Assembly (NCBI GenBank): GCA_022360955.1
Contig: JAKSBV010000154.1
Coordinates: 1-46,555, forward strand
DNA: 46,555 nt
Source: Bacillota bacterium
Lineage (GTDB): Bacteria; Bacillota; Clostridia; SK-Y3
Reading direction: 5' to 3'
In this document: in pieces, positions 8,471 through 25,056 of the stretch
How positions within the stretch are numbered: the stretch's first letter is position 1
How the letters are laid out: each line of letters begins with the position of its first letter
The notes under the pieces: model-generated
Told to the model about the DNA's origin: nothing
Databases searched by the model: none
Seen by the model: only the letters and a program-made list of their open reading frames with translations
Made by a program: the position numbers and the translations under genes

Positions 8471-9103
8471 TTATTTATGATGGGTTGTACACAATGAGAC
8501 AATATGCTTTTCATCAATTTGATGTTTCCGGAAAGAACAATGAACCGATTCATTTTTAGTGGTTAACCGTATATTTTCCTTTTCGATTGTAAATGAAAAA
8601 CAATTGAGAGGAATGGACAATCCCTTTCCCACAGCTTTGATATAGCTTTCCTTCAAGGTCCACAGCGTATAGAAATAGTGTAATCTGTTCTTTTCATCCT
8701 GCCCCATCAAGTCATTGTATTCGGCTTTTGTAAAGAATCTTTTGGCAATGTCAAAATTAATCGGCTGTATAACCTCTACGTCTATCCCGACAGGTGCATT
8801 GTCCGCTGCACATACCACCCAGTCGCCGGCATGTGACAGGTTAAAGTGAATACCTTTATGTTCTGCAAGAATGGGTTTCCCATATTCGTTCCGTCCGAAT
8901 TTCAGCTGACTGCTCTTTATATTGAATCTATTGCAGATGGCATATCTCGCCAGCAGGTCGCCAAGCAAACACCGCTGTGCGTCCTCAAAGAATGCAAATC
9001 GATTTATTCGCTCTCTTTTTTCCGGAGCAACTAAATTCAAAAGGTTGTCAAATGTATCTTGATCCATTTGACGCAGTATTTTAATGCCATAGATATCGAC
9101 CAT
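8471..9103 (-). CDS. Sfp-type 4'-phosphopantetheinyl transferase
   Basis: Would transfer the phosphopantetheine arm of CoA to a serine on carrier proteins. The 210-residue protein has the family motifs in order: FNLSHAGD (87-94), GIDVE (106-110, Mg2+-binding acidic residues) and WTLKESYIKAVGKGL (148-162). This is the longer Sfp type used for carrier proteins of secondary metabolism and sometimes fatty-acid synthesis, not AcpS. No peptide or polyketide synthetase is in the window, so its partner lies elsewhere. A sigma-A promoter lies at 9181-9209 on the minus strand. Confidence 0.93.
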   Translation of the reverse strand: MVDIYGIKILRQMDQDTFDNLLNLVAPEKRERINRFAFFEDAQRCLLGDLLARYAICNRFNIKSSQLKFGRNEYGKPILAEHKGIHFNLSHAGDWVVCAADNAPVGIDVEVIQPINFDIAKRFFTKAEYNDLMGQDEKNRLHYFYTLWTLKESYIKAVGKGLSIPLNCFSFTIEKENIRLTTKNESVHCSFRKHQIDEKHIVSLCTTHHK

Positions 9104-10948: not shown

Positions 10949-11060
10949 CAAACTTTTGGATATATTTTTTAAAATGCAAATTTGATAGTCGTTCAACATG
11001 TTACAAATTTTGTGTAATGATTTTCAGCATAATGTTTGATAAAAAAAGAAAGAGAAGATA

Positions 11061-11090
11061 TTTACAGATAATGTGTTATTATGGTATACT
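11061..11090 (+). promoter_or_regulatory. Promoter of the tagA leader (copy A)
   Basis: TTTACA (11061-11066), 18-base spacer, TATACT (11085-11090). The whole promoter block is nearly identical to 13781-13810. An upstream block at 11018-11040 also matches 13694-13716 with one difference. Confidence 0.75.
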
Positions 11091-11096
11091 TTATAT

Positions 11097-11433
11097 TATC
11101 AAAATATTTCCAAAGACATAAAATAGATGGAAGTATATTTAAAATACAGTTTACATATGTGTAATTGTTTCAAATACTAAATCTTACCCTGGTTTGAATG
11201 GATACCGTTGTGGGTAGTCAAGCTGTTACCTTTCTTAAGTGATTTTTGAGCGTTGAATGATCTCTTATATTATAGGGGATTATTGTCTTTATATATCGGA
11301 TTGTGAAGGAGTATGCAGGGGACAAATTCCGATTTGCTAAAGTAGTCTGCCATAAAGGAATTTTCAAATTATATATAATCAAAATATGAAGAGGATAGTA
11401 GTGGAAGGAAAACAGTACTAAGGAGGATATGCA
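11097..11433 (+). promoter_or_regulatory. Long 5' leader of tagA, copy A of a duplicated leader
   Basis: About 340 bases with no credible gene lie between the promoter and tagA. Segment 11122-11315 matches 13919-14108 upstream of loaP over nearly its full length. Its core has TTACCC (11184-11189) that can pair with GGGTAG (11212-11217), enclosing GGT/ACC. The paralogous stretch outlasts any promoter need, so a function as RNA is likely. Given the LoaP gene nearby, it is a candidate antitermination target. That is inference. AAGGAGG precedes the tagA start. Confidence 0.65.
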
Positions 11434-12150
11434 ATGAAAATAGATATCTTAGGAGTACCCTTTGACAATGTGACCCCTGATGAAGCATTAGGAAAGCTTT
11501 TGGCATTCACAAATATAGATAAAAATCACTTGTTAATCACACCCAATCCTGAAATTGTAATGCGAGCACAAGCGGATAACGAACTTATGCAAATTTTACA
11601 CCAAGCCGATTTGGTAATACCGGATGGCGTTGGTATAGTGCTGGCATCAAGAATATTGAAAAGAAAAGTCAGGGAAAGAGTCACGGGCTATGATTTAATC
11701 CAGTCCTTATTCAATGTAATTAAGGATACTCCTAAAACCGTTTATATACTAGGAGCTAAACCTGGTGTTGCAGAAAAAGCGAAGAGGAATATGGAACAAA
11801 GATATAAAAACTTAAAAATCGTTGGCGTTCACGATGGATATTTTGATGAAATGCAAGAGGAAATCATAATAAAAGAAATTCAAGATTTAAAGCCAGATAT
11901 ACTTTTAGTGGGATTAGGGTGTCCGAGACAAGAAAAGTGGATCAGCAAAAATAGATCCAGATTGCCGGTGAAAATAAGTGCCGCTATTGGAGGAAGTATT
12001 GATATCATGGCCGGGACTCTAAAAAGGGCCCCTAAAGCTTTTCGAGTTCTCGGACTTGAGTGGTTTTATCGCCTTCTTCAAGAACCCCAACGTATTGCCA
12101 GGATGAAGCAACTTCCTTTATTTATAATGTGGGTCCTGAAAAATAGATGA
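11434..12150 (+). CDS. tagA: WecG/TagA/CpsF-family glycosyltransferase
   Basis: Family GT26 enzyme that would add N-acetylmannosamine, or a related sugar, to an undecaprenyl-linked GlcNAc at the inner membrane face. This is an early step in wall teichoic acid or surface polysaccharide synthesis. The 238 residues show ITPNPEIVM (35-43), PDGVGIV with the likely catalytic Asp (63-69), RVTGYDL (82-88), GLGCPRQEKWI (about 167-177) and the C-terminal basic stretch RAPKAFRVLGLEWFYRL. There is no signal peptide. Start: ATG 11434 after AAGGAGG. It is the first gene behind leader A, and what follows it is a gene remnant. Confidence 0.92.
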   Translation: MKIDILGVPFDNVTPDEALGKLLAFTNIDKNHLLITPNPEIVMRAQADNELMQILHQADLVIPDGVGIVLASRILKRKVRERVTGYDLIQSLFNVIKDTPKTVYILGAKPGVAEKAKRNMEQRYKNLKIVGVHDGYFDEMQEEIIIKEIQDLKPDILLVGLGCPRQEKWISKNRSRLPVKISAAIGGSIDIMAGTLKRAPKAFRVLGLEWFYRLLQEPQRIARMKQLPLFIMWVLKNR

Positions 12151-12154
12151 TTAG

Positions 12155-12382
12155 TTTAATCTGACAATAAATCGACTATATCAGAATAATACTGTTCCAG
12201 GGAAAATATATGTGGAACTAGCCGGTTGCGAGCAATTCAAATTACCTGATGGAGCAACTCTGGTAAAAAATGAGGATAATAAAGCTGTCATTTATGTAGA
12301 GGACGCTAATAATATTGGGAATGTCATCAATGACATCGCCAGAAACAACAACATACGGAACATATATACTGAAAAACCATAA
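12155..12382 (+). pseudogene. C-terminal remnant of an ABC transporter ATPase (DUF4162-like tail)
   Basis: A 75-codon open stretch bounded by TAG at 12152 and TAA at 12380 has no plausible start. Its translation (KIYVELAGCEQFKLPDGA..., then VEDANNIGNVINDIARNN and IRNIYTEKP) reads like the tail found after the nucleotide-binding domain of ABC-2 type ATPases. The nucleotide-binding domain itself is absent, so this is a deletion scar between tagA and the sialidase-like gene. Family assignment is from pattern only. Confidence 0.5.
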
Positions 12383-12513
12383 ATTGAAGATATAATTTTG
12401 AAAATATACAAAAGCTTTAACGCTTAAAGCCATATTTGCCTAACAGAAATTCATTTTAGTGCATAGACAGCTTTTTAAATATACTCATGTATTTTAGTGA
12501 AATGGGGTGTAAG

Positions 12514-13500
12514 ATGTTGAAGATCATAGAGAGTATTGCGAGTACATACATATCCAAAAGTGATATGATAGAATTTAATAATATGCTTGTTTGTGCTTAT
12601 ACAATGAGTTTTGACTGTGATAGAAATAGTGAAACAAGAATAATATACCAGATTTCTAAAGATGGAGGAGAGAGCTGGGAGAGACATGAATTAGTTCCGG
12701 TATGCAGGGGTGTTCCCTACTGGGATAATATTAAGCTATCAAAAAATCAACATTGTATATATATATTTGCAAATAGTGTGGAACGGGAAGACGTAGGGGT
12801 TGAAATACTGTATTTTAAGTCTAGTGATTTAATTCATTGGTCTAATCCAAAATCAATAAACATTGTAGGTGTTTTGTCGGGGGCTCCCCTTTTTTTAAAT
12901 AATAAAAATGTTCTTATACCTATACATTCTAAAAATAGAAAAACGGGTTATTATCAACAGAAAATTTATTATTCAGACAACTTTGAAGTTTGGCATCAGT
13001 GTAGTAAGTTGCCTTTTCTAGAGTATCATGATTTTTGTGATAGTCAATTGTATAGTGTTGACAATGAGTTAGGTCTTTTAATGAGAGAAAAGTCAGTAAA
13101 CAATTGGGATATGTTTTGTTCGAAATCAAATGATGATGGGATAACATGGAATAGACCTCTAAAGGTTCCGTTTAAAGGTTGCTCAAGGCCTAAAATTGAA
13201 ATTTATCAAAACAAACTAATCGTTTTCTTTTCATTTGATAAGCTTGAGAACATGAAGTTAAACAATAAAGTGGTTATCGCAATAAGTAACTTGAATGAAT
13301 TTCACAAGACACCCTACAGGTGCAATTTTTCTACCTACAGTTATACTGATTTGTATGGAGATCAAAATTGTGAGCTCTGCTTAGGAAACGCTGGCTGTAT
13401 TCACAGTGAAACAGGTAATATTATTACCACAACTTATTTCGTGAAAAACAACATAGGCAATATAGCAGTTAATATTTTAAAAGGCTCTGGGCTTATTTGA
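12514..13500 (+). CDS. Sialidase-like (BNR/Asp-box) beta-propeller protein
   Basis: About 328 residues with two clear Asp boxes, SKDGGESW near the N-terminus and SNDDGITW in the second half, plus degenerate ones. This matches the six-bladed propeller of exo-alpha-sialidases and related glycan-binding or glycan-cleaving proteins. There is no signal peptide or membrane segment, so it would act in the cytoplasm, which is unusual for a sialidase. The typical sialidase FRIP motif was not found, so activity is uncertain. The start is ambiguous: ATG 12514 has GGGGTG close upstream, while in-frame ATGs at 12487 and 12502 have poorer sites. Codons are AT-rich. A strong terminator follows. Confidence 0.7.
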   Translation: MLKIIESIASTYISKSDMIEFNNMLVCAYTMSFDCDRNSETRIIYQISKDGGESWERHELVPVCRGVPYWDNIKLSKNQHCIYIFANSVEREDVGVEILYFKSSDLIHWSNPKSINIVGVLSGAPLFLNNKNVLIPIHSKNRKTGYYQQKIYYSDNFEVWHQCSKLPFLEYHDFCDSQLYSVDNELGLLMREKSVNNWDMFCSKSNDDGITWNRPLKVPFKGCSRPKIEIYQNKLIVFFSFDKLENMKLNNKVVIAISNLNEFHKTPYRCNFSTYSYTDLYGDQNCELCLGNAGCIHSETGNIITTTYFVKNNIGNIAVNILKGSGLI

Positions 13501-13591
13501 TGTATTTAGAAAAGAGCATTTAAACATTTATTATCAAGGAAAATACATCCGGATTATATGCACGATAATATGTTAATAGGGCAGAATGAGT

Positions 13592-13643
13592 ATAGCACTT
13601 TTTTGAATATTCAAAGGAAATATTCAAAAAAGTGCTATTTCTG
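13592..13643 (+). terminator. Long perfect hairpin terminator
   Basis: Twenty-base arms 13592-13611 and 13619-13638 pair perfectly around a 7-base loop. The stem begins ATAGCAC and contains an internal T6/A6 run, followed by TTTCT. It separates the sialidase-like gene from the loaP promoter. Confidence 0.85.
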
Positions 13644-13780
13644 ATTAGGAGTTGCTAAACAACAATAAAACGCTTAATCGCAGTGATGGTCAGTGATTTT
13701 CAGCATAATCTTTGATGAAAACAGAAGAAATAGACCCATTATGTTACAAAATTCTACAAAATATTTAATAAAAAAAGATA

Positions 13781-13810
13781 TTGACAAATAATGTGGTATT
13801 ATGGTATAAT
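13781..13810 (+). promoter_or_regulatory. Promoter of the loaP leader (copy B)
   Basis: TTGACA (13781-13786), 18-base spacer, TATAAT (13805-13810): both boxes are full consensus. Nearly the same sequence precedes tagA (11061-11090). Confidence 0.85.
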
Positions 13811-13816
13811 CTGTAT

Positions 13817-14241
13817 TATCAAAATATTTCCAGTTTAAATACTAAAAATACAATAGATATCAAAAATGAGATCCTTAGTAAGTTAGTATAAATAATCAGT
13901 CAGAATATTTCCCCAAAAATAGATGAAAGTATATTTAAAATACAGTTTACATATGCATAATCGTTTCAAATTATTAAATCTTACCCTGGTTTAAATGTAT
14001 ATCTTTGTGGTTAGTCAAGCTATTACCTTTCTTAAGCAATTTTTTAGAGTTAAATGATGTTCTTATAAGGGATTATTGTCTTTGTATACCGGATTGTGAA
14101 ATAGTATGTGTAGAACAAATTCTGAAAGGTATTAATCGTCGCCGGGTCGCGTTGATATCTGATGATGACATAGATTAAGCTTTGTAGCACTCAATAAAGT
14201 GTGAAAGGGCGGAGCTATGTCCAGAGAGGGGAGATATTAAG
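13817..14241 (+). promoter_or_regulatory. Long 5' leader of loaP, copy B of a duplicated leader
   Basis: About 425 bases without a gene. Segment 13919-14108 is the paralogue of 11122-11315. Copy B carries an extra stretch of about 85 bases near its 5' end. The TTACCC...GGTTAG hairpin is kept with one mismatch, and the inner GGT/ACC pair becomes GGT/ATC (a G-U pair). Upstream of an antiterminator gene this suggests that LoaP could control its own transcript. Confidence 0.65.
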
Positions 14242-14769
14242 ATGAGTAATTGGTTTGTGTTTTTTGTGCAAACCGGTAAGGAGCAGGTTGTTTGCAACTA
14301 TTTTAATGAGAGGTTAAATGAAAAAGGATTAGCTGCATTTTTCCCCAAAGTCCAATTAGTTTACAAGACTTCAAAGCAGGTTCGCAAAGAGCTTAAACCT
14401 ATGTTCCCCGGTTATATTTTTGCGGAAACCGATCTAGACGCAAGAAGCATCGCAATTCAGACATCACAAATGGTAAGGACCTCTAAACACCTCTTCAAAT
14501 TGCTTGGCAACGAAAACTCCGATTATATGCCTTTACATGAAGAAGAAAAGGCGTTTTTATTGAAATTTTGTGATGAGGCGTACATTGTGAGAGAGTCCAA
14601 GGGATTAAAAAGAGGAGATAAAGTATTGGTGACTTCAGGTCCTTTGCAGGGGAAAGAAAGTATCATCAAGCGGATTGACAGGCATAGAAGACGGGCAGAG
14701 ATAGAATTGAGACTTATGGGAGATACAAGGCGTGTCAGCCTATCTTTGGAGATTGTGGAGAAGGTGTGA
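14242..14769 (+). CDS. loaP: LoaP-type transcription antiterminator (specialised NusG paralogue)
   Basis: A 175-residue NusG-family protein. The N-terminal NGN domain (about 1-105) begins WFVFFVQTGKEQ and contains the FPGYIFAE strand that meets RNA polymerase. The C-terminal KOW domain (about 120-175) has GDKVLVTSGPLQGKES. The length and the position at the head of a polysaccharide locus fit LoaP/UpxY/RfaH-type regulators rather than housekeeping NusG. Such proteins ride on RNA polymerase and suppress termination in long biosynthetic operons after recognising a leader element. A GGGGAG ribosome site precedes ATG 14242. Its targets are probably the duplicated leaders and the genes to 25 kb (inference). 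Confidence 0.92.
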   Translation: MSNWFVFFVQTGKEQVVCNYFNERLNEKGLAAFFPKVQLVYKTSKQVRKELKPMFPGYIFAETDLDARSIAIQTSQMVRTSKHLFKLLGNENSDYMPLHEEEKAFLLKFCDEAYIVRESKGLKRGDKVLVTSGPLQGKESIIKRIDRHRRRAEIELRLMGDTRRVSLSLEIVEKV

Positions 14770-15273: not shown

Positions 15274-16455
15274 ATGGGTATTAGTGTATGTATGTTGATT
15301 AAAAACGAAGAGGCTCAATTAGGTGATTGCTTAGAATGTGTTTATGATCTATCTGACGAAATAATTATTGTTGATAATGGATCAACTGATAACACTATAA
15401 GTATCGCAAATAGTTATAAATGTAGAGTCATAAGTTGTCCTGATTTGGTGTTGGATAAAGGGAGAAATGAATATATTAAAGCGGCTAAAGAGGATTGGAT
15501 TTTAGTTGTTGATGCTGATGAACGTCTAGATAAGAGAGGGCGTGAGTGTATAAAAGAAGCTGTTGCAAATGCACCTGATGATGTGTATTCTTTCTTACTT
15601 CCAAGATATGATTATTTAGGAAATGGCAGATGGAGTATGATTACAATGTTAAGATTATTCCGTAATATTGAAGGAATTTTTTATAATGATTTATCTGTTC
15701 ATGCATCACCTGGACCGTCTATTAGGGCACTTGGAGGAAGAACTTCATATGTGAATGCACCACTTCATCACTTGGATAATTTGATGTTGAAAGGACGTGC
15801 ATTATGTAAAAGGGAGCGCTATACAGAACTAATTAAGAAAGAAATAGTTGAACACAAAGGGAGCAAGTCTTTATATCTTTTACATTCACTTCTTGGAACT
15901 GAGTATTCATGTGTTGGAAGATACGATGATGCAATGAAGGAATACGAAAAGGCAAAAGAAATTGATTATGATTTTATACCACTTGCACAAATTTATATAG
16001 CACAAAATTATTTATTACAAAACGATTATGAGAATACAATTAAAAATGCAGAAATATTGATAGGGAATGGTGGTGTTTTAGAGGAAAGGGCATATACATT
16101 ATTAGCTGAGATAGAAGCTCGTAGAGGAGATTATGCTAAGGCTCGCATATTTTGTGAGAACGCTTTAAGAAGTAACGAAAACGCAACGCACCATTTGATA
16201 AATATTGCTTCATTATCCCTACAAAATGATCCTGAGCTAGCTATAAATTATATCGAAAAGGCTTTGACACAAAATAGTTATCTTCTAAACGATATTATAT
16301 ACAAGAAGGGTGACAGACCAAACCCCTTTGAGCAACAAATATCTTTTTTATCAACAACAAATAATATTTTTAAAATAATGAAAGATTCATATAGACAAAT
16401 GGGTAATAGACAAAAATACGATGAATGGGTAACCCTTGAGAAAAAAATTCTTTAA
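15274..16455 (+). CDS. Family 2 glycosyltransferase with TPR tail
   Basis: 393 residues. The N-terminal GT-A domain (about 1-170) has VCMLIKNEE, the DNGSTDNT nucleotide-sugar site and the catalytic-metal motif DADERLD. The C-terminal half carries tetratricopeptide-like helical pairs (about 200-330). This architecture occurs in protein-modifying glycosyltransferases such as SunS-like and flagellin-modifying enzymes, so the acceptor may be a protein. It is cytoplasmic. AAAGGA lies upstream of ATG 15274. It opens a visibly AT-rich block that runs to about 20.2 kb. Confidence 0.88.
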   Translation: MGISVCMLIKNEEAQLGDCLECVYDLSDEIIIVDNGSTDNTISIANSYKCRVISCPDLVLDKGRNEYIKAAKEDWILVVDADERLDKRGRECIKEAVANAPDDVYSFLLPRYDYLGNGRWSMITMLRLFRNIEGIFYNDLSVHASPGPSIRALGGRTSYVNAPLHHLDNLMLKGRALCKRERYTELIKKEIVEHKGSKSLYLLHSLLGTEYSCVGRYDDAMKEYEKAKEIDYDFIPLAQIYIAQNYLLQNDYENTIKNAEILIGNGGVLEERAYTLLAEIEARRGDYAKARIFCENALRSNENATHHLINIASLSLQNDPELAINYIEKALTQNSYLLNDIIYKKGDRPNPFEQQISFLSTTNNIFKIMKDSYRQMGNRQKYDEWVTLEKKIL

Positions 16456-16618
16456 CTGTTTATCTATTATTAATATATTAAAGTCATATTATCAAATGTG
16501 ATAATATCCAAAATGTGGGCATTGTTTGATAAATGCTTATTTTAAGCAAGCGTGAAGCAGGAAAAACAATAAAAAAACGCAAGTACTGATAAAATGGTAC
16601 TTGATTTAAGGAGGATAT

Positions 16619-16699
16619 ATGAAAACATTCAAATATGAGGTTATAGTAATCATTCCAGTATACAACCAAAAATTTGTTTTAAATGGAGGAATAATATGA
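16619..16699 (+). pseudogene. Truncated N-terminus of a GT2 glycosyltransferase, coupled to the epimerase gene
   Basis: A 26-codon frame starts after a perfect AAGGAGG and encodes MKTFKYEVIVIIPVYNQK, the first beta strand and VIIPVYN motif of GT2 enzymes. It then runs into a TGA that overlaps the ATG of the next gene (ATGA). The rest of the enzyme is deleted. The surviving start may act as a leader peptide that couples translation to the epimerase. Upstream (16456-16618) I see only small hairpins (16486-16507 and 16580-16603). Confidence 0.6.
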
Positions 16700-17715
16700 A
16701 GGTACTAGTAACAGGTGGTGCGGGGTATATAGGTAGTACTATATGTTCAGCATTGCTAGATTCAGGCCATGTACCTGTGATTTTAGATTCTCTTGTGAAT
16801 GGAAGAATTGAGTTTGCAGAAGGAAGAAATTTCTATAAAGGTGACATAGAAGACAAAGAATTGCTTAGTTCAATCTTCGAGGAACATTCAGATATTGAGT
16901 TTACTATTCATTGTGCTGCATTGATTGTCGTTCCAGATTCAGTAAAAAAACCAGATGACTACTATACTGAAAATGTAGGAAAGTCGTTAGAACTATTCAA
17001 AATGTTGAATGAACTTGGATGCAAAAATATCGTTTTTAGCTCTTCTGCATCTATTTATGATGATTCGCCGACTTTTATTGTTAATGAAGAGTCAAATTTG
17101 AATCCAAGAAGTCCCTATGCACGTACAAAATATATGATGGAAATGATACTTAAGGATTTTTGTGTTGCATATGATATGAAAGCAATAGCCCTTAGATACT
17201 TTAATCCAATTGGTTCTGATCCAGAAATGAGAACGGGTTCATATATTAAGTCGCCTTCTCATATCTTGGGTAAATTAATCCAAGTATCATCAGGCAAAGA
17301 AGATATTTTCAAAGTCACAGGAACTAATTGGGATACTAGAGATGGTACGGGTATTAGAGACTATATTCATGTTTGGGATTTGGCTAGAGCGCATGTGTAT
17401 GCTATAGAGAAATTTGAAATTATCTTTGATAGCAAAGATTGTAAAGATGTGACTTATGAGGTGATAAATCTAGGTAATGGGAGAGGTACTACTGTAAGAG
17501 AAATGGTTAATGCATTTGAAAATGTTATAGAGAAAGAAATTAATAAAACTGAAACAGAACCTAGACAAGGTGATGTTCCGGGAGCATATGCAAATGCAGA
17601 TAAAGCTTTTAAATTACTTGGCTGGAAAACTGAGTTGACGACAGAAGATGGTATAAGGGATGCTCTAGTGTGGTCAGATAAGTGGGATAAAACACTTAAA
17701 GAGCTATCTAGGTAG
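16696..17715 (+). CDS. galE: UDP-glucose 4-epimerase-like NAD-dependent sugar epimerase
   Basis: 339-residue extended short-chain dehydrogenase. TGGAGYIGS (6-14) binds NAD. The catalytic SSSAS...YARTK (Ser and Tyr-x3-Lys) and RYFNPIGSDP follow, then GIRDYIHVWDLARAH and the C-terminal RQGDVPGAYA motif, all as in GalE. It would interconvert UDP-glucose and UDP-galactose, or the N-acetyl forms, to feed glycan synthesis. GGAGG of the truncated upstream frame serves as its ribosome site. It belongs to the AT-rich block. Exact UDP-sugar preference is not readable. Confidence 0.9.
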   Translation: MKVLVTGGAGYIGSTICSALLDSGHVPVILDSLVNGRIEFAEGRNFYKGDIEDKELLSSIFEEHSDIEFTIHCAALIVVPDSVKKPDDYYTENVGKSLELFKMLNELGCKNIVFSSSASIYDDSPTFIVNEESNLNPRSPYARTKYMMEMILKDFCVAYDMKAIALRYFNPIGSDPEMRTGSYIKSPSHILGKLIQVSSGKEDIFKVTGTNWDTRDGTGIRDYIHVWDLARAHVYAIEKFEIIFDSKDCKDVTYEVINLGNGRGTTVREMVNAFENVIEKEINKTETEPRQGDVPGAYANADKAFKLLGWKTELTTEDGIRDALVWSDKWDKTLKELSR

Positions 17716-17767
17716 TTATCTTATAAAGTGACTTTGTTATAAACTAATTAGAAAGGGAAGAGGAAAA

Positions 17768-19063
17768 ATGAAAATAAATAACAATGCAAGCTTGGAACAA
17801 AATTATGATGTATGGTTGCCATCTGATGACCTGATGAAAAAGATAGTTGAACAAGAAGATTTAACAAGTGATGAGATTTTAGCAGGTGTTAAAGATGGTA
17901 CCATCAGTATTCTAGCAAGCAAGATTAGTGTAGAAAGAGGAGAATTTACACCATGCATAGTAGGTAATGGGACAAGGAAAAAGGTTTGTGCCGCCATAGG
18001 TATGGATGCCAATGATGTGTCACATTTTATGTCAGATGAATTAAAAGTAATTCTTAATTCAGAGCCAAATGCTTTGTGTGATGTAAGTATAGGTGAGGAA
18101 ATACCTGAGGCATTGAGGTCAATCAGAGACCATATCAACATTCCGTTGGGTTCATGTCCAACTTATGATGTGATTAATGCTAAAGTGAAGCGGGAATTAA
18201 CTAAAGAAAAAGTATTAGAAAAAATTGAAGAACATTTAAAATCAGGCGTAGATTTTATTCTTCTACATATGGGTTTAAGCTATAAAATGATGGATAAGGT
18301 ATTATCTTCAAATAGGGTGATGCCATCAACGTCTCGTGGAGGCGGTGCCATTATACGATATATGAAAATGACTGAGAAAGAAAACCCCTTCATATTATAT
18401 CTCGATGATATTGCAAAACTTTGTAAAGAGTATCAAGTAGTTTTAGACCTTGGTGATATATTTAGACCTGGTTGTGTTCAAGATGGTGATAATCTTATGG
18501 AAGTTGATTGCCTAAAGGCTATGGAAGTAAACCATTTGAATCAATTAAGACAACGCGCATTGTCTCTAGGTGTACAGGTTGTCTGTGAGGCAGGAGGTCA
18601 TGTATCTCTTAACAAAATTACTGATTTTGTGGTTTGGTTAAAAGAATCCTTAGGACAGGCACCACTATTCTTTAATGGACCACTTCCAACGGATAGAGCA
18701 GTGGGCTATGATAGTATTGCCAATGCAATTGGTGTTTCACATGCTGCAATTCATGGTGGTGATATGTTTTTATCTTTAAGTGATGCGGAGCATTATGCCA
18801 AGCCTACACCAACGCAGTCAGCACAAGGTGTTAGGGCGACTAAAGTGGCTTTATCGACTGTAGAATATGCAATAGGTTCTTTCTTTGAAGTTAGGCAGAA
18901 TCATGCTATGGGTAGGGCAAGACAAGATAGGCAATGGAATGAACAAGCTAATACTAGCCTTTTTCCAAGAATATCTGCAAAGTTATTTCATGAAAATGGT
19001 CTTGTTAAAGACCTACAACCTTGCTCTTTGTGTGGTCCTCTATGTCCATTACTCGTGAATTAG
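17768..19063 (+). CDS. Divergent ThiC-family radical SAM protein in the glycan locus
   Basis: 431 residues, collinear with the short form of phosphomethylpyrimidine synthase ThiC, which rearranges aminoimidazole ribotide. Family landmarks are GNGTRKKV, IPLGSCPTYDVI, SRGGGAI, LDLGDIFRPG, CEAGGHV, FFNGPLPTDRAVGYDSI, HGGDMF, DRQWNEQANTSLFP and the C-terminal cluster motif CSLCGPLC. The metal-ligand histidines in GGHV and AEHY are kept. EGPGH has become EAGGH and PGYDHI has become VGYDSI, which is unlike housekeeping ThiC. It stands between GalE and a nucleotidyltransferase, away from thiamine genes. It may make a modified product for the glycan, or it could be a BzaF-like relative. Function is inferred only. 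Confidence 0.85.
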   Translation: MKINNNASLEQNYDVWLPSDDLMKKIVEQEDLTSDEILAGVKDGTISILASKISVERGEFTPCIVGNGTRKKVCAAIGMDANDVSHFMSDELKVILNSEPNALCDVSIGEEIPEALRSIRDHINIPLGSCPTYDVINAKVKRELTKEKVLEKIEEHLKSGVDFILLHMGLSYKMMDKVLSSNRVMPSTSRGGGAIIRYMKMTEKENPFILYLDDIAKLCKEYQVVLDLGDIFRPGCVQDGDNLMEVDCLKAMEVNHLNQLRQRALSLGVQVVCEAGGHVSLNKITDFVVWLKESLGQAPLFFNGPLPTDRAVGYDSIANAIGVSHAAIHGGDMFLSLSDAEHYAKPTPTQSAQGVRATKVALSTVEYAIGSFFEVRQNHAMGRARQDRQWNEQANTSLFPRISAKLFHENGLVKDLQPCSLCGPLCPLLVN

Positions 19064-19076
19064 AGTGGGTAAAGGT

Positions 19077-20255
19077 ATGAAAGTCGATTATTGTAAGAAT
19101 TCGGTATATCTTTCAGAAGAAAATATCGAAGTCATTAATTATAATCTGAATCATCATTTTACTAGGGTAACGCGCCTATTTGAAGAAAAGAATATACATG
19201 CCAATGTTTATTTGACCGGCTCTCTCGCGCGTAGTGAGCCAGCTATTTCTATTATTCAAGATGAAGTTAATTTGTTTTCTGATATTGATTTCATTATTGC
19301 AATCGAAAGGGATAGCATACATAGAGATTGGGTTATGGGACTTGCTTCAAGGCTTAATGAAATGTATCCAGAATACAAAAACTCTGTTATAATAGTTTCA
19401 GCAGATAATATATCTAATTTTCGCTCTTGTATTGGAAATGATCTTTTACTTTCTTTGAAGGAACCGTTATATGAACGTTTAAAGATACAAGAGAGAAGTA
19501 GCTGGATTATTGAGAGAGAAGACCTTTTTGAATCAATCGTACATCAATTCAGTGGATATTATCTTAATACGTCCAACATCGAGAATGGTAAAGAAGACTT
19601 ACTTGGTAAAGATAAGAATTATAGTTATATAAAGATGTTACTTGAATGTCTTAGGATGCAATTGTATAGTGAAGGTGTTGTTTCAAAGGGTTATTACAAC
19701 GTACATGCGGAACGTCAAGATGAAGTGATTAGTAAAATAGTTGAACCTAGTGTAGTTGAAAAGTTAGTAAAGGCGAGAGAAATCTTTGGCAGTTATGAGT
19801 ATCCATCGATAAATATGTATGATTTTTTAAAACGTGTTCTGATAATGCCTTTAGGAATCAAAGAAGTTCACAATGTGCCTATTGAATCTCAGATTATAGA
19901 TAGGTTAAATCAAATAATTCACGTTTCTAGTAAATTATTACACTTGTATCAATGTGGATTAACATCATTGGTATTAGGTATAGAAGGAAAATATAAAACT
20001 CATAAGGTTTTTATTGATTTAAGTATAAAGAGTATGCTAAAAATCAACGATTTGAATTTGTCGAGTAACAATGATTTTGTACAATTGGTTGAAAGTCTAA
20101 AATTAAGTACCTTAAGCCAAACAATGGTAGAATGTCTACTAAAGAAGATAATTGCTTCATTACGATGTGATTATCTCAATGAACTCACCTTTAAAAATAC
20201 TGGGGAATATGGCTTTTCAGACATTCAAAACCATTTAAATGTAGGGTCTCTATAA
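19077..20255 (+). CDS. Nucleotidyltransferase-fold protein
   Basis: 392 residues. The N-terminal third has the minimal nucleotidyltransferase signature GSLARSEP followed by FSDIDFIIAIE (GS ... DxD), which binds NTP-Mg2+. The remainder is helical and not recognised. It lies 13 bases after the ThiC-like gene and is surely co-transcribed, so it may activate or attach the product of that enzyme. ATG 19077 is preferred over GTG 19065, but neither has an ideal ribosome site. No membrane segments. Antibiotic adenylyltransferases share the fold, but nothing else points there. Confidence 0.75.
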   Translation: MKVDYCKNSVYLSEENIEVINYNLNHHFTRVTRLFEEKNIHANVYLTGSLARSEPAISIIQDEVNLFSDIDFIIAIERDSIHRDWVMGLASRLNEMYPEYKNSVIIVSADNISNFRSCIGNDLLLSLKEPLYERLKIQERSSWIIEREDLFESIVHQFSGYYLNTSNIENGKEDLLGKDKNYSYIKMLLECLRMQLYSEGVVSKGYYNVHAERQDEVISKIVEPSVVEKLVKAREIFGSYEYPSINMYDFLKRVLIMPLGIKEVHNVPIESQIIDRLNQIIHVSSKLLHLYQCGLTSLVLGIEGKYKTHKVFIDLSIKSMLKINDLNLSSNNDFVQLVESLKLSTLSQTMVECLLKKIIASLRCDYLNELTFKNTGEYGFSDIQNHLNVGSL

Positions 20256-20337
20256 AATAGAGATAATAAATAAAGTAACCCTGCTGATGAATAAAATCAA
20301 AGTAATTCTATCAAGTGTAATAGGGGATGGAGTTAAA

Positions 20338-22077
20338 ATGAAAATAAATTCCATAATCAATATTTTAGCCAACAACAAAGCGCAGTGGCCGAAGCTGTGT
20401 CTGCAAGTTTTTTTTTCATTGATGAGAAGCATAACGCTACCTATTTTTTCACTCTTGCTGAAAAATGGAATTGACCTAAGCCTTCAGCATCAATTTGAGA
20501 AGGCAGTTTTTTATTTTATCCTCGCAATCCTACTACAACCTCTGACATCTTTGTTACTGATGTTGGAATGTTGGGTAACCGGAATCACAACGGAGTCCAT
20601 TATCTTGCCGATCCGAAAACGATTCTTTTCCAAGCTTGGCTCGGCTCAAGTCCCTTACATAGAGAAACAGATGCGAACGGGAGATATCGCCTCTCGCTTA
20701 AACAGTGATTTAGAAGGCTTGTCGGATGAATTCGGCGGAAATATGAGCTGGTTCATAAAAATTCTATTGCAGTCTGTTGCATCAGCGATAGGATGTCTCA
20801 TAGTATGCTGGCAGCTGTCGTTAATATATTTTTTCCTGATTCCCATAACGATATGGGGGATGCAGAAAATCAGCGTTTCTATCAAAAAGAGAAAAACCGC
20901 TGCGTCAGAAAGCAAAGGGGAAGCGATGAATCATGCGGTAGACATGTTTTCCAATCTCAGTGTCATTAAGTCTTTTCATGTCTACAAAGAGATGAATTCC
21001 CGATATGCTAAGGCTGTTGACAAAGTTTGCGAAGAGAATATTAAAAGTCAACAAATCACATCGATTATTAATGCACTGAAATTGTTTGTCAGCGTTGTGC
21101 AGACAGCAGTTCTGTTTATCTTCAGTCTTTCTTTTATTGGGCAAGGGCTTATCACAGTAGGAGGTGTTATCGCTTTTATCAGTATGAGCGAATTTGTTCG
21201 GGAAGGGTTTGGTCTTGTGGATTACTTTATCACGGCAATGCGTAGGACAGAAAGCTATGCCAAGCGACTCAATGATCTAGACCCAATACCATTGGAGATT
21301 AACGGAAGCTACAATGAGCAAATGAATGAAAACGAAATAGTATCTCTATCCAATATTTCCTTTAGCTATGAGGAAAACCGGGAGATTTTACATAATATCT
21401 GCTTGAAAATAGCACAGGGTCAAAAGGTTGCCTTGGTGGGAGAGTCAGGAAGCGGTAAAAGCACCATCATTAATCTGATCTGTCGGTTTTACACCCATCA
21501 AAACGGCGACCTAAATATTTTTGGGGCTTCCTCTGAGGAATGGAATCTGACAGCCCTGCGAAAAAAAATATCAATTGTGCCACAGGAGCCCTTCCTGTTT
21601 AACGGAACAATTACCGAAAATATTGCCTATGGAAGAGAAAGTGTTACCGAGGAAGAAATCATAAAGGCGGCAAAAGATGTTGGACTATGGACATTCATCT
21701 CCAGCTTGGAAAAGGGGATTGATACCGAAGTGGGAGAAGCTGGAGCGAAGCTCTCCGGAGGGCAGAGACAAAGGATATGTATCGCAAGAGCGATGATAAA
21801 GGATGCGCCTCTTATTTTGTTGGATGAGCCGACTTCTTTGCTAGACGTGCAAATGGAGGTCGCTGTTCAAACAGTGCTAGATCAGTGGCTGACTGATAAG
21901 TCGGCGATAATTGTAGCGCATCGTCTCTCCACCATACAAAATGTTGACTATATTTATTGCCTTGCGGATGGTAAAATAATAGAAGAGGGTAGACCGGAAA
22001 ATCTGCTGATGAATAAAGGCTATTACTATTCTATGTGCGTGAAGCAAGGTGTTCCTATTTATAAAAAGACCAGCTAA
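20338..22077 (+). CDS. ABC exporter, membrane and ATPase domains fused (1)
   Basis: 579 residues. The N-terminal half has about six membrane helices of the type I exporter fold. The nucleotide-binding domain (about 335-560) has Walker A GESGSGKST, Q-loop VPQEPF, signature LSGGQRQR, Walker B LILLDEP with the catalytic Glu, and H-loop AHRLST. It probably exports a lipid-linked glycan or peptide. Start ATG 20338 follows GGATGGAG; the longer start at 20287 has no ribosome site. It is richer in GC than the preceding block. With the second exporter it may form a heterodimer, although both ATPase sites look intact. Confidence 0.9.
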   Translation: MKINSIINILANNKAQWPKLCLQVFFSLMRSITLPIFSLLLKNGIDLSLQHQFEKAVFYFILAILLQPLTSLLLMLECWVTGITTESIILPIRKRFFSKLGSAQVPYIEKQMRTGDIASRLNSDLEGLSDEFGGNMSWFIKILLQSVASAIGCLIVCWQLSLIYFFLIPITIWGMQKISVSIKKRKTAASESKGEAMNHAVDMFSNLSVIKSFHVYKEMNSRYAKAVDKVCEENIKSQQITSIINALKLFVSVVQTAVLFIFSLSFIGQGLITVGGVIAFISMSEFVREGFGLVDYFITAMRRTESYAKRLNDLDPIPLEINGSYNEQMNENEIVSLSNISFSYEENREILHNICLKIAQGQKVALVGESGSGKSTIINLICRFYTHQNGDLNIFGASSEEWNLTALRKKISIVPQEPFLFNGTITENIAYGRESVTEEEIIKAAKDVGLWTFISSLEKGIDTEVGEAGAKLSGGQRQRICIARAMIKDAPLILLDEPTSLLDVQMEVAVQTVLDQWLTDKSAIIVAHRLSTIQNVDYIYCLADGKIIEEGRPENLLMNKGYYYSMCVKQGVPIYKKTS

Positions 22078-22083
22078 ATCATA

Positions 22084-22260
22084 GAGTCTTACCGGAATGG
22101 ATTAATACTCTTGCTTACGGGTAGTCGGCCCAATAAGGCCCGTCCCAGGAGGTGATCGTTCACCTTTCAAGTCCGGAAACTATTTATATATGATTTTTAG
22201 GTTCAGGCCAACTGTCCTGGCAAAGTGGCTAAGATGGGAAGCCAAATAATGATGTGTTTG
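22084..22260 (+). promoter_or_regulatory. Structured leader between the ABC exporter genes (copy C, weak relative of A and B)
   Basis: The 293-base gap has no gene. It starts TCTTACC-GGAATGGAT and ends its first hairpin with CGGGTAGTC, echoing TCTTACCC...GAATGGAT...GGGTAGTC of leader A. TTACC can pair with GGTAG. Further hairpins follow: GGCCcaataaGGCC, AGGTGAtcgtTCACCT and CAGGccaactgtCCTG. No intrinsic terminator is evident. Confidence 0.4.
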
Positions 22261-22370
22261 ATGTTTAGATAAGTATGAAATTTAAGTTGTTATGTTAATT
22301 ATTAATTTTAAAGATAGAACAGTGGTAAAACTACTGATTAATTACAAATATAATTATACAAGGATGAGTT

Positions 22371-24071
22371 ATGATGGTATACCAGGGAAAACCCGATTTC
22401 AGGGCAAGCGTAAGTCTTTTTTTTCGTTGCTTTTCTTATATTCGGCATAAAGGCGTCTTTGTGATTGGTTTTCTGATGGCGTCGACAGAGCATTTAATTG
22501 CTTTTGCAACACCGCTCCTCTATCAGATCATCATGGCTGTGATTTCTGATTCCTCTCAGGTAGGGCAAGAACAGACAAAGTTGCCATTGCTTTTAGCGGG
22601 AATTACGCTGTTGATTCCGGTTTGTACCTATGGTCGATACCTTCAGGTGAAATGTTCGGCTCAAGGCAGCGCAGAGCTGAACAAGGCGATGTTTGACCAT
22701 ATTCAAAGAATGCCGCTATCTATTGTAAGTCAAAATGGGATGGATGTTTACCTTACCCGTTTGAATATGGATGCTGATGCGGCGGTTAATGTCTTTCGCT
22801 CCTATGGATTGACTGCCTTTGCGAAGTTCATTGTAATCGGCGGCGGGAGTTTGCTTGTGCTATTGTTCTATAGCTGGCAAATGGCACTACTTGGATTATG
22901 TGTTGGGGGGTCTTGTGCTTTCTTGGCATTGCTATGGACGCCGAAGCTCCGTCAAATGGAATGGGAGGCAAAAGAAGCCAACTCTCTTTCCCTAGCCTCT
23001 TTGATTGAGATTCTACAGGGCTTTCGGATTGTCCGGATATTTAACTTGAAAGAAATCCTGCAAAAGAAATACAATATGATCTGTGAAGTAATTTATGATA
23101 AAAGGGTTAAATTCTGTACATTCCGCGGCATTATGTACGGAATATTAGTTGTATGCAGCTATATTGCACAGCCTCTGGCCATGCTGATCGGTATTTGGGT
23201 GTTATTGTTTAGAGGAATTGATATAACAGAAATCATCCTGATCTCTAGTTATGTGGCTCTTGTTGGAACCTCTACGCGACATTTCACCAATTTTGCATTG
23301 CATCTACCAAAATCATTGGTTGCAGCAGAGAGAGTTTTCGCTATTATGGATCAGAAAATAGAAACACAAATAGAGGATAGCTGCTTGGTTGATCTTTTTT
23401 GTCCAAACTCAATCAGAGTTTCGAATTTGTGTTTCAGTTATCTGCCGAATCAGCCGGTGTTAGAGGATATTAGCTTTTCCATTAAAAAAGGCGAACATGT
23501 TGCAATCGTTGGAGAATCAGGCTGTGGAAAGAGCACATTGATGAAATTAATTCAAAGGCTGATTGATCCAGACAGCGGTGATATTACAGCTTTTTCTGCT
23601 TCCTATAGGAATATGAGCCTTGAGACAACCAGAAGTCTTATTTCGTACATACCGCAGGAATGTAATCTCTTTTTTGGGACAATCGCCGACAATATCGCTT
23701 TCGGGAAAGAAAACGCGACGATGGCGGAAATTATTGAATCCGCTCGAAAGGCGAACATCCATCAATTTGTTGAGAGTCTCCCAGAGGGATATAACACTCT
23801 TGTCGGTGAGCGAGGGTATGCTCTTTCAGGCGGTCAGCGCCAACGCATTGTAATTGCCAGAGCCTTAATTAAGGATGCCCCTATACTGCTTATGGATGAG
23901 CCAACTTCTTCACTCGACATCGAAAATGAAGAGGTAATCTTTCAGGAGGTCCTTTCTACTGCAAGGGATAAAACGATTATTGCGATTACGCACCGGATGT
24001 CTATCGCAGAATATATGGATCGGATATTTTTGATAAAGGATAAAAGTTGGGGCGAAATAGACAAAACTTAA
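22371..24071 (+). CDS. ABC exporter, membrane and ATPase domains fused (2)
   Basis: 566 residues, same architecture as the previous gene: membrane domain of about six helices (residues 25-310), then an ATPase with Walker A GESGCGKST, Q-loop IPQECN, signature LSGGQRQR, Walker B ILLMDEP and H-loop THRMS. The AAGGA ribosome site lies 6 bases before ATG 22371. It follows the first exporter after a structured leader and precedes a glycosyltransferase by 16 bases. Likely partner of exporter 1 in moving the glycan or a modified peptide. Substrate unknown. Confidence 0.9.
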   Translation: MMVYQGKPDFRASVSLFFRCFSYIRHKGVFVIGFLMASTEHLIAFATPLLYQIIMAVISDSSQVGQEQTKLPLLLAGITLLIPVCTYGRYLQVKCSAQGSAELNKAMFDHIQRMPLSIVSQNGMDVYLTRLNMDADAAVNVFRSYGLTAFAKFIVIGGGSLLVLLFYSWQMALLGLCVGGSCAFLALLWTPKLRQMEWEAKEANSLSLASLIEILQGFRIVRIFNLKEILQKKYNMICEVIYDKRVKFCTFRGIMYGILVVCSYIAQPLAMLIGIWVLLFRGIDITEIILISSYVALVGTSTRHFTNFALHLPKSLVAAERVFAIMDQKIETQIEDSCLVDLFCPNSIRVSNLCFSYLPNQPVLEDISFSIKKGEHVAIVGESGCGKSTLMKLIQRLIDPDSGDITAFSASYRNMSLETTRSLISYIPQECNLFFGTIADNIAFGKENATMAEIIESARKANIHQFVESLPEGYNTLVGERGYALSGGQRQRIVIARALIKDAPILLMDEPTSSLDIENEEVIFQEVLSTARDKTIIAITHRMSIAEYMDRIFLIKDKSWGEIDKT

Positions 24072-24087
24072 AAGGAGGTCGTATTAC

Positions 24088-25056
24088 ATGGATGATTTAA
24101 TCAGCCTAATTGTTCCGATTTACAATGTAGAAGGCTATTTAAGAAAATGCATCGATAGTATACTGGTCCAAACCTACAATAATCTTGAGATCCTATTAGT
24201 TAACGATGGTTCTCCCGATAGCAGCGGGATAATATGCGACGAATACGCCAAAAAAGATCCCCGGATTAAGGTTATTCATAAAGAGAACGGAGGATTATCC
24301 GATGCCAGAAACAAGGGACTGGATATCGCTGTCGGCAATTATATTGGTTTCGTTGATGGGGATGATTACATTGAACCGGATATGTACCAAACATTATACC
24401 ACTTAATTAAAGAGTATAACACGGATTTGTCCATGATATCTTATAACAATGTGAAAAATGAGATAACTAGACCGAGAGTCAATACAAACACCATCCGTAT
24501 TTTTGAGAAGATGGAAGCGTTACAATCTATTATAATCGATAAAGAAATCCAGAGTTACGTATGGAATAAGCTATATAAAGCAGAAATTCTGCAAGATATT
24601 CGGTTTCCCATTGGAATTATGTATGAAGATGTCAGCACCATGCTTAAAATCTTCAAAAAGATGAACAACATTGTATATTTCGAAACGCCCAAATATAACT
24701 ATGTTTTTCGTGAGAATAGTATTGTGAATGATTACAGTCATCAAAAACAAGAGGACTGCCTTTCTGTGGTTATCGACAATTATTATGAAGTCGAGGAGTT
24801 CCCAGATTTAGACAAGTATAGGTGCTACAGCGTGATTCTCTGGATGGTTCGGTTATACGGCTTTATGATAAGGGCTAATGATCCGGATAATGCTTTCATT
24901 AAGAAGCATTATGACTTGTTTCAAAAAGCATATGAGAGACATAAAGAATATATAGTAGATAACTTAGATCCGGCGAAACGTATTATATTGTTTGCAATGT
25001 TGTGGGATTTAGATAAGAGCAGAGAAGTTGTAAAAGTGCTATATGGGCTCAATTAG
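24088..25056 (+). CDS. Family 2 glycosyltransferase, EpsJ-like
   Basis: 322 residues. The GT-A fold shows ISLIVPIYNVEGYLRKCIDS, LVNDGSPDSS, ENGGLSDARNKGL and the metal-binding VDGDDYI, the standard order for polysaccharide GT2 enzymes such as EpsJ. There is no membrane segment. AAAAGGAGG precedes the start. It is the last intact gene of the glycan locus, followed by a terminator and an insertion-sequence remnant. Confidence 0.9.
   Translation: MDDLISLIVPIYNVEGYLRKCIDSILVQTYNNLEILLVNDGSPDSSGIICDEYAKKDPRIKVIHKENGGLSDARNKGLDIAVGNYIGFVDGDDYIEPDMYQTLYHLIKEYNTDLSMISYNNVKNEITRPRVNTNTIRIFEKMEALQSIIIDKEIQSYVWNKLYKAEILQDIRFPIGIMYEDVSTMLKIFKKMNNIVYFETPKYNYVFRENSIVNDYSHQKQEDCLSVVIDNYYEVEEFPDLDKYRCYSVILWMVRLYGFMIRANDPDNAFIKKHYDLFQKAYERHKEYIVDNLDPAKRIILFAMLWDLDKSREVVKVLYGLN

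Follow-up and report, generated by a model that had tools for sequence, protein, structure and literature searches.

The leader of loaP in the window, that is, in the whole analysed stretch of 46,555 nt from a Bacillota bacterium (contig JAKSBV010000154.1), carries a structured RNA of 112 nt (14110-14221, plus strand), located between a duplicated promoter-leader block and loaP itself. We consider this RNA the likely LoaP-loading element of the locus, in place of the duplicated block, and we infer binding of LoaP and antitermination at this site from the sequence comparisons given below. The element is best read as a variant LoaP-loading hairpin which would be autoregulatory and would serve a small trans regulon, probably without tagA. 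In a preliminary description of this DNA a leader RNA before loaP that recurs in the genome had been proposed as the LoaP target; such an RNA is present, but the likely target is the adjacent 112 nt and not the duplicated block. In many bacteria the element stands ahead of loaP and of gene clusters for polysaccharides or antibiotic-type products, and knowing the landing site would help to predict which gene clusters are switched on by LoaP.

Structure of the RNA element upstream of loaP

The element was found by comparing the regions upstream of LoaP genes in 391 genomes of the class. The covariance model was built from 19 sequences including the window copy, and 14110-14221 is its single credible match in the window (76.2 bits, E 2.7e-15). 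The RNA consists of a long hairpin P1 (14121-14166) with the core AAUCG-n-YG-loop-CR-CGUU, followed by a second domain, P3 (14184-14218). In the window the P1 core (14128-14159) reads GGUAUUAA U CG U CG CCGGGU CG CG UUGAUAUC, with bulges at U14136 and U14139 and an apical hexaloop at 14142-14147, details that were partly read from the sequence. P3 is formed, according to the covariance-model alignment, by GUAG/CUAU (14184-14187 with 14215-14218) and CACU/AGUG (14188-14191 with 14198-14201), and its 3' strand in the window is UGAAAGGGCGGAG (14202-14214). Across the elements P3 comprises two stems, and its 3' side contains a conserved UGAAnGGGCGAAG.

Covariation was found in a MAFFT alignment of the 19 elements, where 15 pairs contain 52 cells changed on both sides; none of 500 shuffles attained this cell count or the covariation score, and pairing is much poorer in slid structures, the tested structure being derived partly from the same sequences. 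The window row seems to be shifted at P3 in the MAFFT alignment and is placed properly by the covariance model. For 20 further elements RNAalifold recovered the P1 core and the P3 inner stem unaided, pair 32-41 occurs as UA in ten, CG in six and AU in four of them, and the P3 inner stem covaries in this held-out set as well, which was collected with the covariance model and is hence biased towards it. A scan of 0.76 Mb of named LoaP loci for the strict core motif gave 28 occurrences, compared with zero or one in each of 12 random sequences of equal length. No known Rfam family matched the element: the window contains no match at the gathering threshold and none overlapping the element at E≤5, and the elements of other loci gave none at E≤1. 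A UCAC-GUGA pseudoknot between the loop side of P1 and P3 was dropped after inspection by eye, since it is broken in several rows of the alignment (A3) and its bases pair within P1.

The gene downstream, loaP (14242-14769, plus strand), had been annotated earlier as a NusG paralogue of the LoaP type, and NCBIfam NF033641 confirms this with 179.5 bits at a cut-off of 125. The protein comprises an NGN domain (Pfam NusG) and a beta-barrel KOW domain (Pfam KOW); its AlphaFold model is of moderate confidence (pLDDT 71.7) with a beta C-terminal domain, and 8f5g is among the top structural matches. Y41 and K42 of the window LoaP align with E40 and R41 of 8f5g, the residues that contact UNCG, where the numbering of BvLoaP is assumed to be that of 8f5g. 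In the source genome one LoaP and only one other gene, a NusG-like one, were found.

Duplication of the promoter and leader

Three paired blocks upstream of loaP and of tagA (11434-12150, plus strand; WecG/TagA/CpsF glycosyltransferase, Pfam PF03808, 218.8 bits) had been reported before, and we find them in place with order and strand kept, far above chance. The upstream blocks 11018-11050 and 13694-13726 (both plus strand) show 91% identity and the promoter blocks 11050-11112 and 13770-13832 show 87%. The leader similarity, previously put at about 190 bases, covers about 215 bases (11120-11332 and 13916-14125, plus strand, 84% over 214 columns, E 6e-57). Both promoters are of sigma-70 type and contain a TG, with TTTACA-18-TATACT (10/12) on the tagA side at 11061-11090 and TTGACA-18-TATAAT (12/12) for loaP at 13781-13810. 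The stretch from the BNR-repeat gene to the loaP promoter also contains a perfect inverted repeat of 20 bp around a 7-nt loop (13592-13638), likely a terminator.

A search of the genome revealed that the promoter-leader exists in three copies and not two. The third is located on contig C487 (G000:C487:26377-26736, corresponding to L007 8378-8737) upstream of an ABC-2 transporter operon, which encodes an ABC transporter ATPase and two ABC-2 permeases. Homology between the tagA and loaP leaders ends at 11332/14125, within the first bases of the element, after which the two diverge; because the tagA copy stops there, the 14110-14221 RNA fell outside the repeat described earlier. The likeness of the C487 and loaP leaders continues past this point into ATGAG(T/C)AATT, the first loaP codons, beyond which LoaP is no longer encoded. 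The leader upstream of the ABC-2 operon leads into a decayed loaP start (L007 8850-8900, ATGAGCAATT...), which suggests that this target was once a loaP locus.

No credible covariance-model match to the element was obtained in the tagA leader (11018-11434). Being cut off at the element start, this leader shares the promoter but probably not LoaP control, and judged from its sequence tagA is probably not a LoaP target through the 14110-14221 RNA. Of the proposal that tagA and loaP make up one LoaP regulon, the shared promoter and block hold, but tagA is without the proposed LoaP site.

It is conceivable, though rather doubtful, that the duplicated leader is a module in its own right, made up of a promoter and a weak attenuator under another factor, which co-regulates tagA, loaP and the C487 operon while LoaP acts on two of them. 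Promoter and leader are indeed preserved in three operons, and an AAUGAU...AUUAUU hairpin with a U-containing tail closes the block in tagA; however, this hairpin is stable in tagA only (-10.8 versus -4 to -5 kcal/mol), and the likeness of the copies may reflect recent duplication alone. Such a module would be compatible with the 14110-14221 RNA as LoaP-loading element.

Distribution of the element and of LoaP subfamilies

With model R1 the element was found at E<1e-8 in exactly 15 of the 391 genomes, and these are the genomes with a LoaP of the F/Y-K type. In the class sampled, co-occurrence amounts to 15/15 genomes with this type versus 0/376 others (Fisher 2e-27), with subfamily membership judged by eye from alignments and most model sequences coming from the same 15 genomes. 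The five genomes with weaker element matches have LoaP- or NusG-like genes too. In the family of Ruminiclostridium hungatei (G293) the element is present in 9 of 11 genomes, all nine with strong subfamily matches, and the two genomes without it have weaker LoaP types and NusG only. No element was found upstream of the R. hungatei C2 LoaP, a close relative, and many LoaPs outside the F/Y-K subfamily gave no model match.

In the named collection about 34 of 80 LoaP loci have the element immediately 5' of loaP at E≤0.02, including Paenibacillus, Anaerobacterium and Lachnospiraceae, and about eight of these loci appear to be model-building genomes. The P1 core is also present at four Coriobacterial loci (L139, L145, L151, L153). 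The element is thus situated 5' of loaP in Clostridia, Paenibacillus and, as P1, Coriobacteria. On the LoaP tree it is clustered, with 11 changes compared to about 30 in shuffles.

Copies that do not precede an intact loaP were found 5' of NRPS-containing operons (G137, G200, G241), an Asn-synthase/adenylation/ABC cluster (G293), UDP-glucose dehydrogenase and glycosyltransferase genes (G221) and DegT aminotransferase genes (G382, G303), in addition to the copy before the transporter operon on C487. In G303 and G382 the element begins at the loaP stop and precedes the operon. Divergent elements (AUUGAUCAUCGACUCGUGCGUGUCAA) at two named loci (L101, L102) begin with the stop codon of a loaP gene of another type and lie 5' of DegT aminotransferase genes. 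Decayed loaP sequence lies beside some copies (C487, G329 and two in G137), which suggests that loaP heads were duplicated and loaP later lost while the element stayed.

These positions bear on the alternative that the 14110-14221 RNA is a ligand-sensing riboswitch or attenuator which controls loaP and is not itself a LoaP target. The two-domain fold is riboswitch-like and most copies are found within 17-63 nt of loaP, but placement ahead of unrelated biosynthetic operons, and 3' of loaP in G303 and G382, argues for an operon-loading site instead of a loaP sensor. An expression platform is moreover not generally present, the presence of the element tracks one LoaP subfamily and UNCG versions of it match the published type of LoaP hairpin, all of which makes a riboswitch improbable.

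Folding and conservation of the duplicated block

The TTACCC...GGGTAG hairpin that had been noted in the shared leader is fully paired in the tagA copy but not in the loaP and C487 copies, where the 3' side reads GGTTAG and GGTTAA, respectively, which breaks or shortens the stem. In the consensus fold of the three copies none of 49 pairs is changed on both sides, and the tagA and loaP leaders of the window show no gain in folding stability over shuffled sequence (z +0.5 and +1.8). The block was also looked for at other LoaP loci; a three-copy profile run against 2.56 Mb of these loci found nothing better than E 2, and a plasmid search for the block gave no match. The block is confined to the source genome and is best seen as a lineage-specific duplication of promoter and leader. 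As a structured RNA it was rejected, being without covariation and without homologues. A leader peptide (ATG near 11127) was considered but set aside, because by eye the differences between copies alter amino acids and there is no clear Shine-Dalgarno sequence.

That LoaP recognises the RNA of the block itself (about 11170-11240 and 13970-14045), with both tagA and loaP as targets, is the view of the preliminary description; the block is preserved at 82-93% in three operons and the genome has a single LoaP, which would suit this view, but the lack of homologues at other LoaP loci, the zero covariation, a hairpin intact only in tagA and a tagA leader devoid of a UNCG hairpin or LoaP core make this view most improbable.

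Comparison with known antitermination systems

In Bacillus velezensis the dfn and mln leaders carry a UNCG hairpin to which LoaP binds (PMC12691694; PDB 8f5g), and the protein antagonises NusA at a leader terminator; its residues E40, R41 and I143 are important, and deletion of the 10 nt before the dfn hairpin is reported to abolish activity (PMC12691694). The last effect would fit a longer P1 stem. As in that system, the window combines a LoaP-family protein with a hairpin in the leader of a biosynthetic operon, and as in dfn and mln the leader belongs to a loaP-linked operon, with the element between the promoter at 13781 and loaP at 14242. In contrast to the published case, the hairpin loop is CCGGGU and not UNCG (TNCG is absent from the whole loaP leader), P3 is present as a second conserved domain, and LoaP, being of the Y-K type, carries Y41-K42 instead of E-R. 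Unlike dfn and mln, the window leader contains no intrinsic terminator between element and loaP in a simple scan; within the loaP operon no clear terminator was found.

At the ER/EK-type loci that we examined the core AAUCGnYG...CRCGUU recurs, there with UNCG as the loop. In three Paenibacillus loci with EK-type LoaP (L157, L158, L185) the divergent leader contains CUUAAUCGACGU(UUCG or UCCG)GCGCGUUAAG; next come a strong terminator-like hairpin and, with gene types read from sequence, PKS-type genes. The ER-type locus L052 combines a UUUCGG loop with a P3-like stretch 5' of a thioesterase-like gene, its type read in the same way. The published hairpin therefore looks like the ER/EK version of the element, a comparison made at the level of core and loop and not with the dfn sequence. 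The UNCG leaders of the three Paenibacillus loci are on the minus strand, upstream of and divergent from loaP, and represent dfn-like systems outside Bacillus.

UpxY of Bacteroides and RfaH-ops of Enterobacteria are similar in that a specialised NusG paralogue serves a surface polysaccharide operon through a leader site. The window protein nevertheless scores far below both NCBIfam cut-offs (UpxY 56.0 against 100, RfaH 35.7 against 144.5), and RfaH recognises non-template DNA instead of an RNA hairpin. EAR (eps-associated RNA) of Bacillus is a structured RNA for processive antitermination in a polysaccharide operon. The element resembles EAR in being a structured RNA in such an operon and differs in that it matches no Rfam family.

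Proposed mechanism and the loaP operon

In the mechanism that we propose, RNA polymerase would start at 13781-13810 and transcribe the lineage-specific leader, then P1 and P3. LoaP would bind the bulged P1 stem and the apical loop of the nascent RNA, join the elongation complex and allow read-through of terminators further down the loaP-polysaccharide operon, and by this read-through LoaP would feed its own synthesis. The second element copy, on C487, would mark the ABC-2 transporter operon for control in trans, and the tagA leader would be a product of the same promoter-leader duplication, truncated at the element start. Autoregulation with a small regulon, as suggested before, is accordingly judged likely with the element before loaP and C487, but tagA is probably outside of it.

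More tentatively, though we regard it as quite possible, each LoaP subfamily may read its own version of one bulged hairpin plus P3, with the loops UNCG, GnGGGU, CCGGGU and, in Coriobacteria, CCAAG, and several such LoaP-RNA pairs could work in parallel within a genome, each as an antitermination channel of its own for particular natural-product or polysaccharide operons. A description of the generalised hairpin may already exist in the LoaP literature. The element could take LoaP from one well-studied kind of RNA target to a family with genome-readable targets. Its covariance model predicts regulons, among them NRPS and polysaccharide clusters of Ruminiclostridium and its relatives, and the LoaP/RNA variants offer a natural set for testing RNA recognition by NusG paralogues.

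The operon presumed to be under LoaP control (15274-25056, plus strand), with membership taken from strand and spacing, encodes according to Pfam and NCBIfam a glycosyltransferase, a GalE-type epimerase, a ThiC-like protein, an unknown protein, two ABC exporters and a further glycosyltransferase. The ThiC-like protein (17768-19063) resembles radical SAM proteins of the ThiC/BzaB kind (Pfam ThiC_Rad_SAM, 304.8 bits) but falls short of the ThiC equivalog cut-offs; it is unusual company for two ABC exporters in a putative polysaccharide operon, and together with the exporters it perhaps belongs to a natural-product pathway. About 5 kb upstream of loaP, on the minus strand (8471-9103), the window also encodes a 4'-phosphopantetheinyl transferase, an enzyme of the kind that carrier proteins of NRPS or PKS require.
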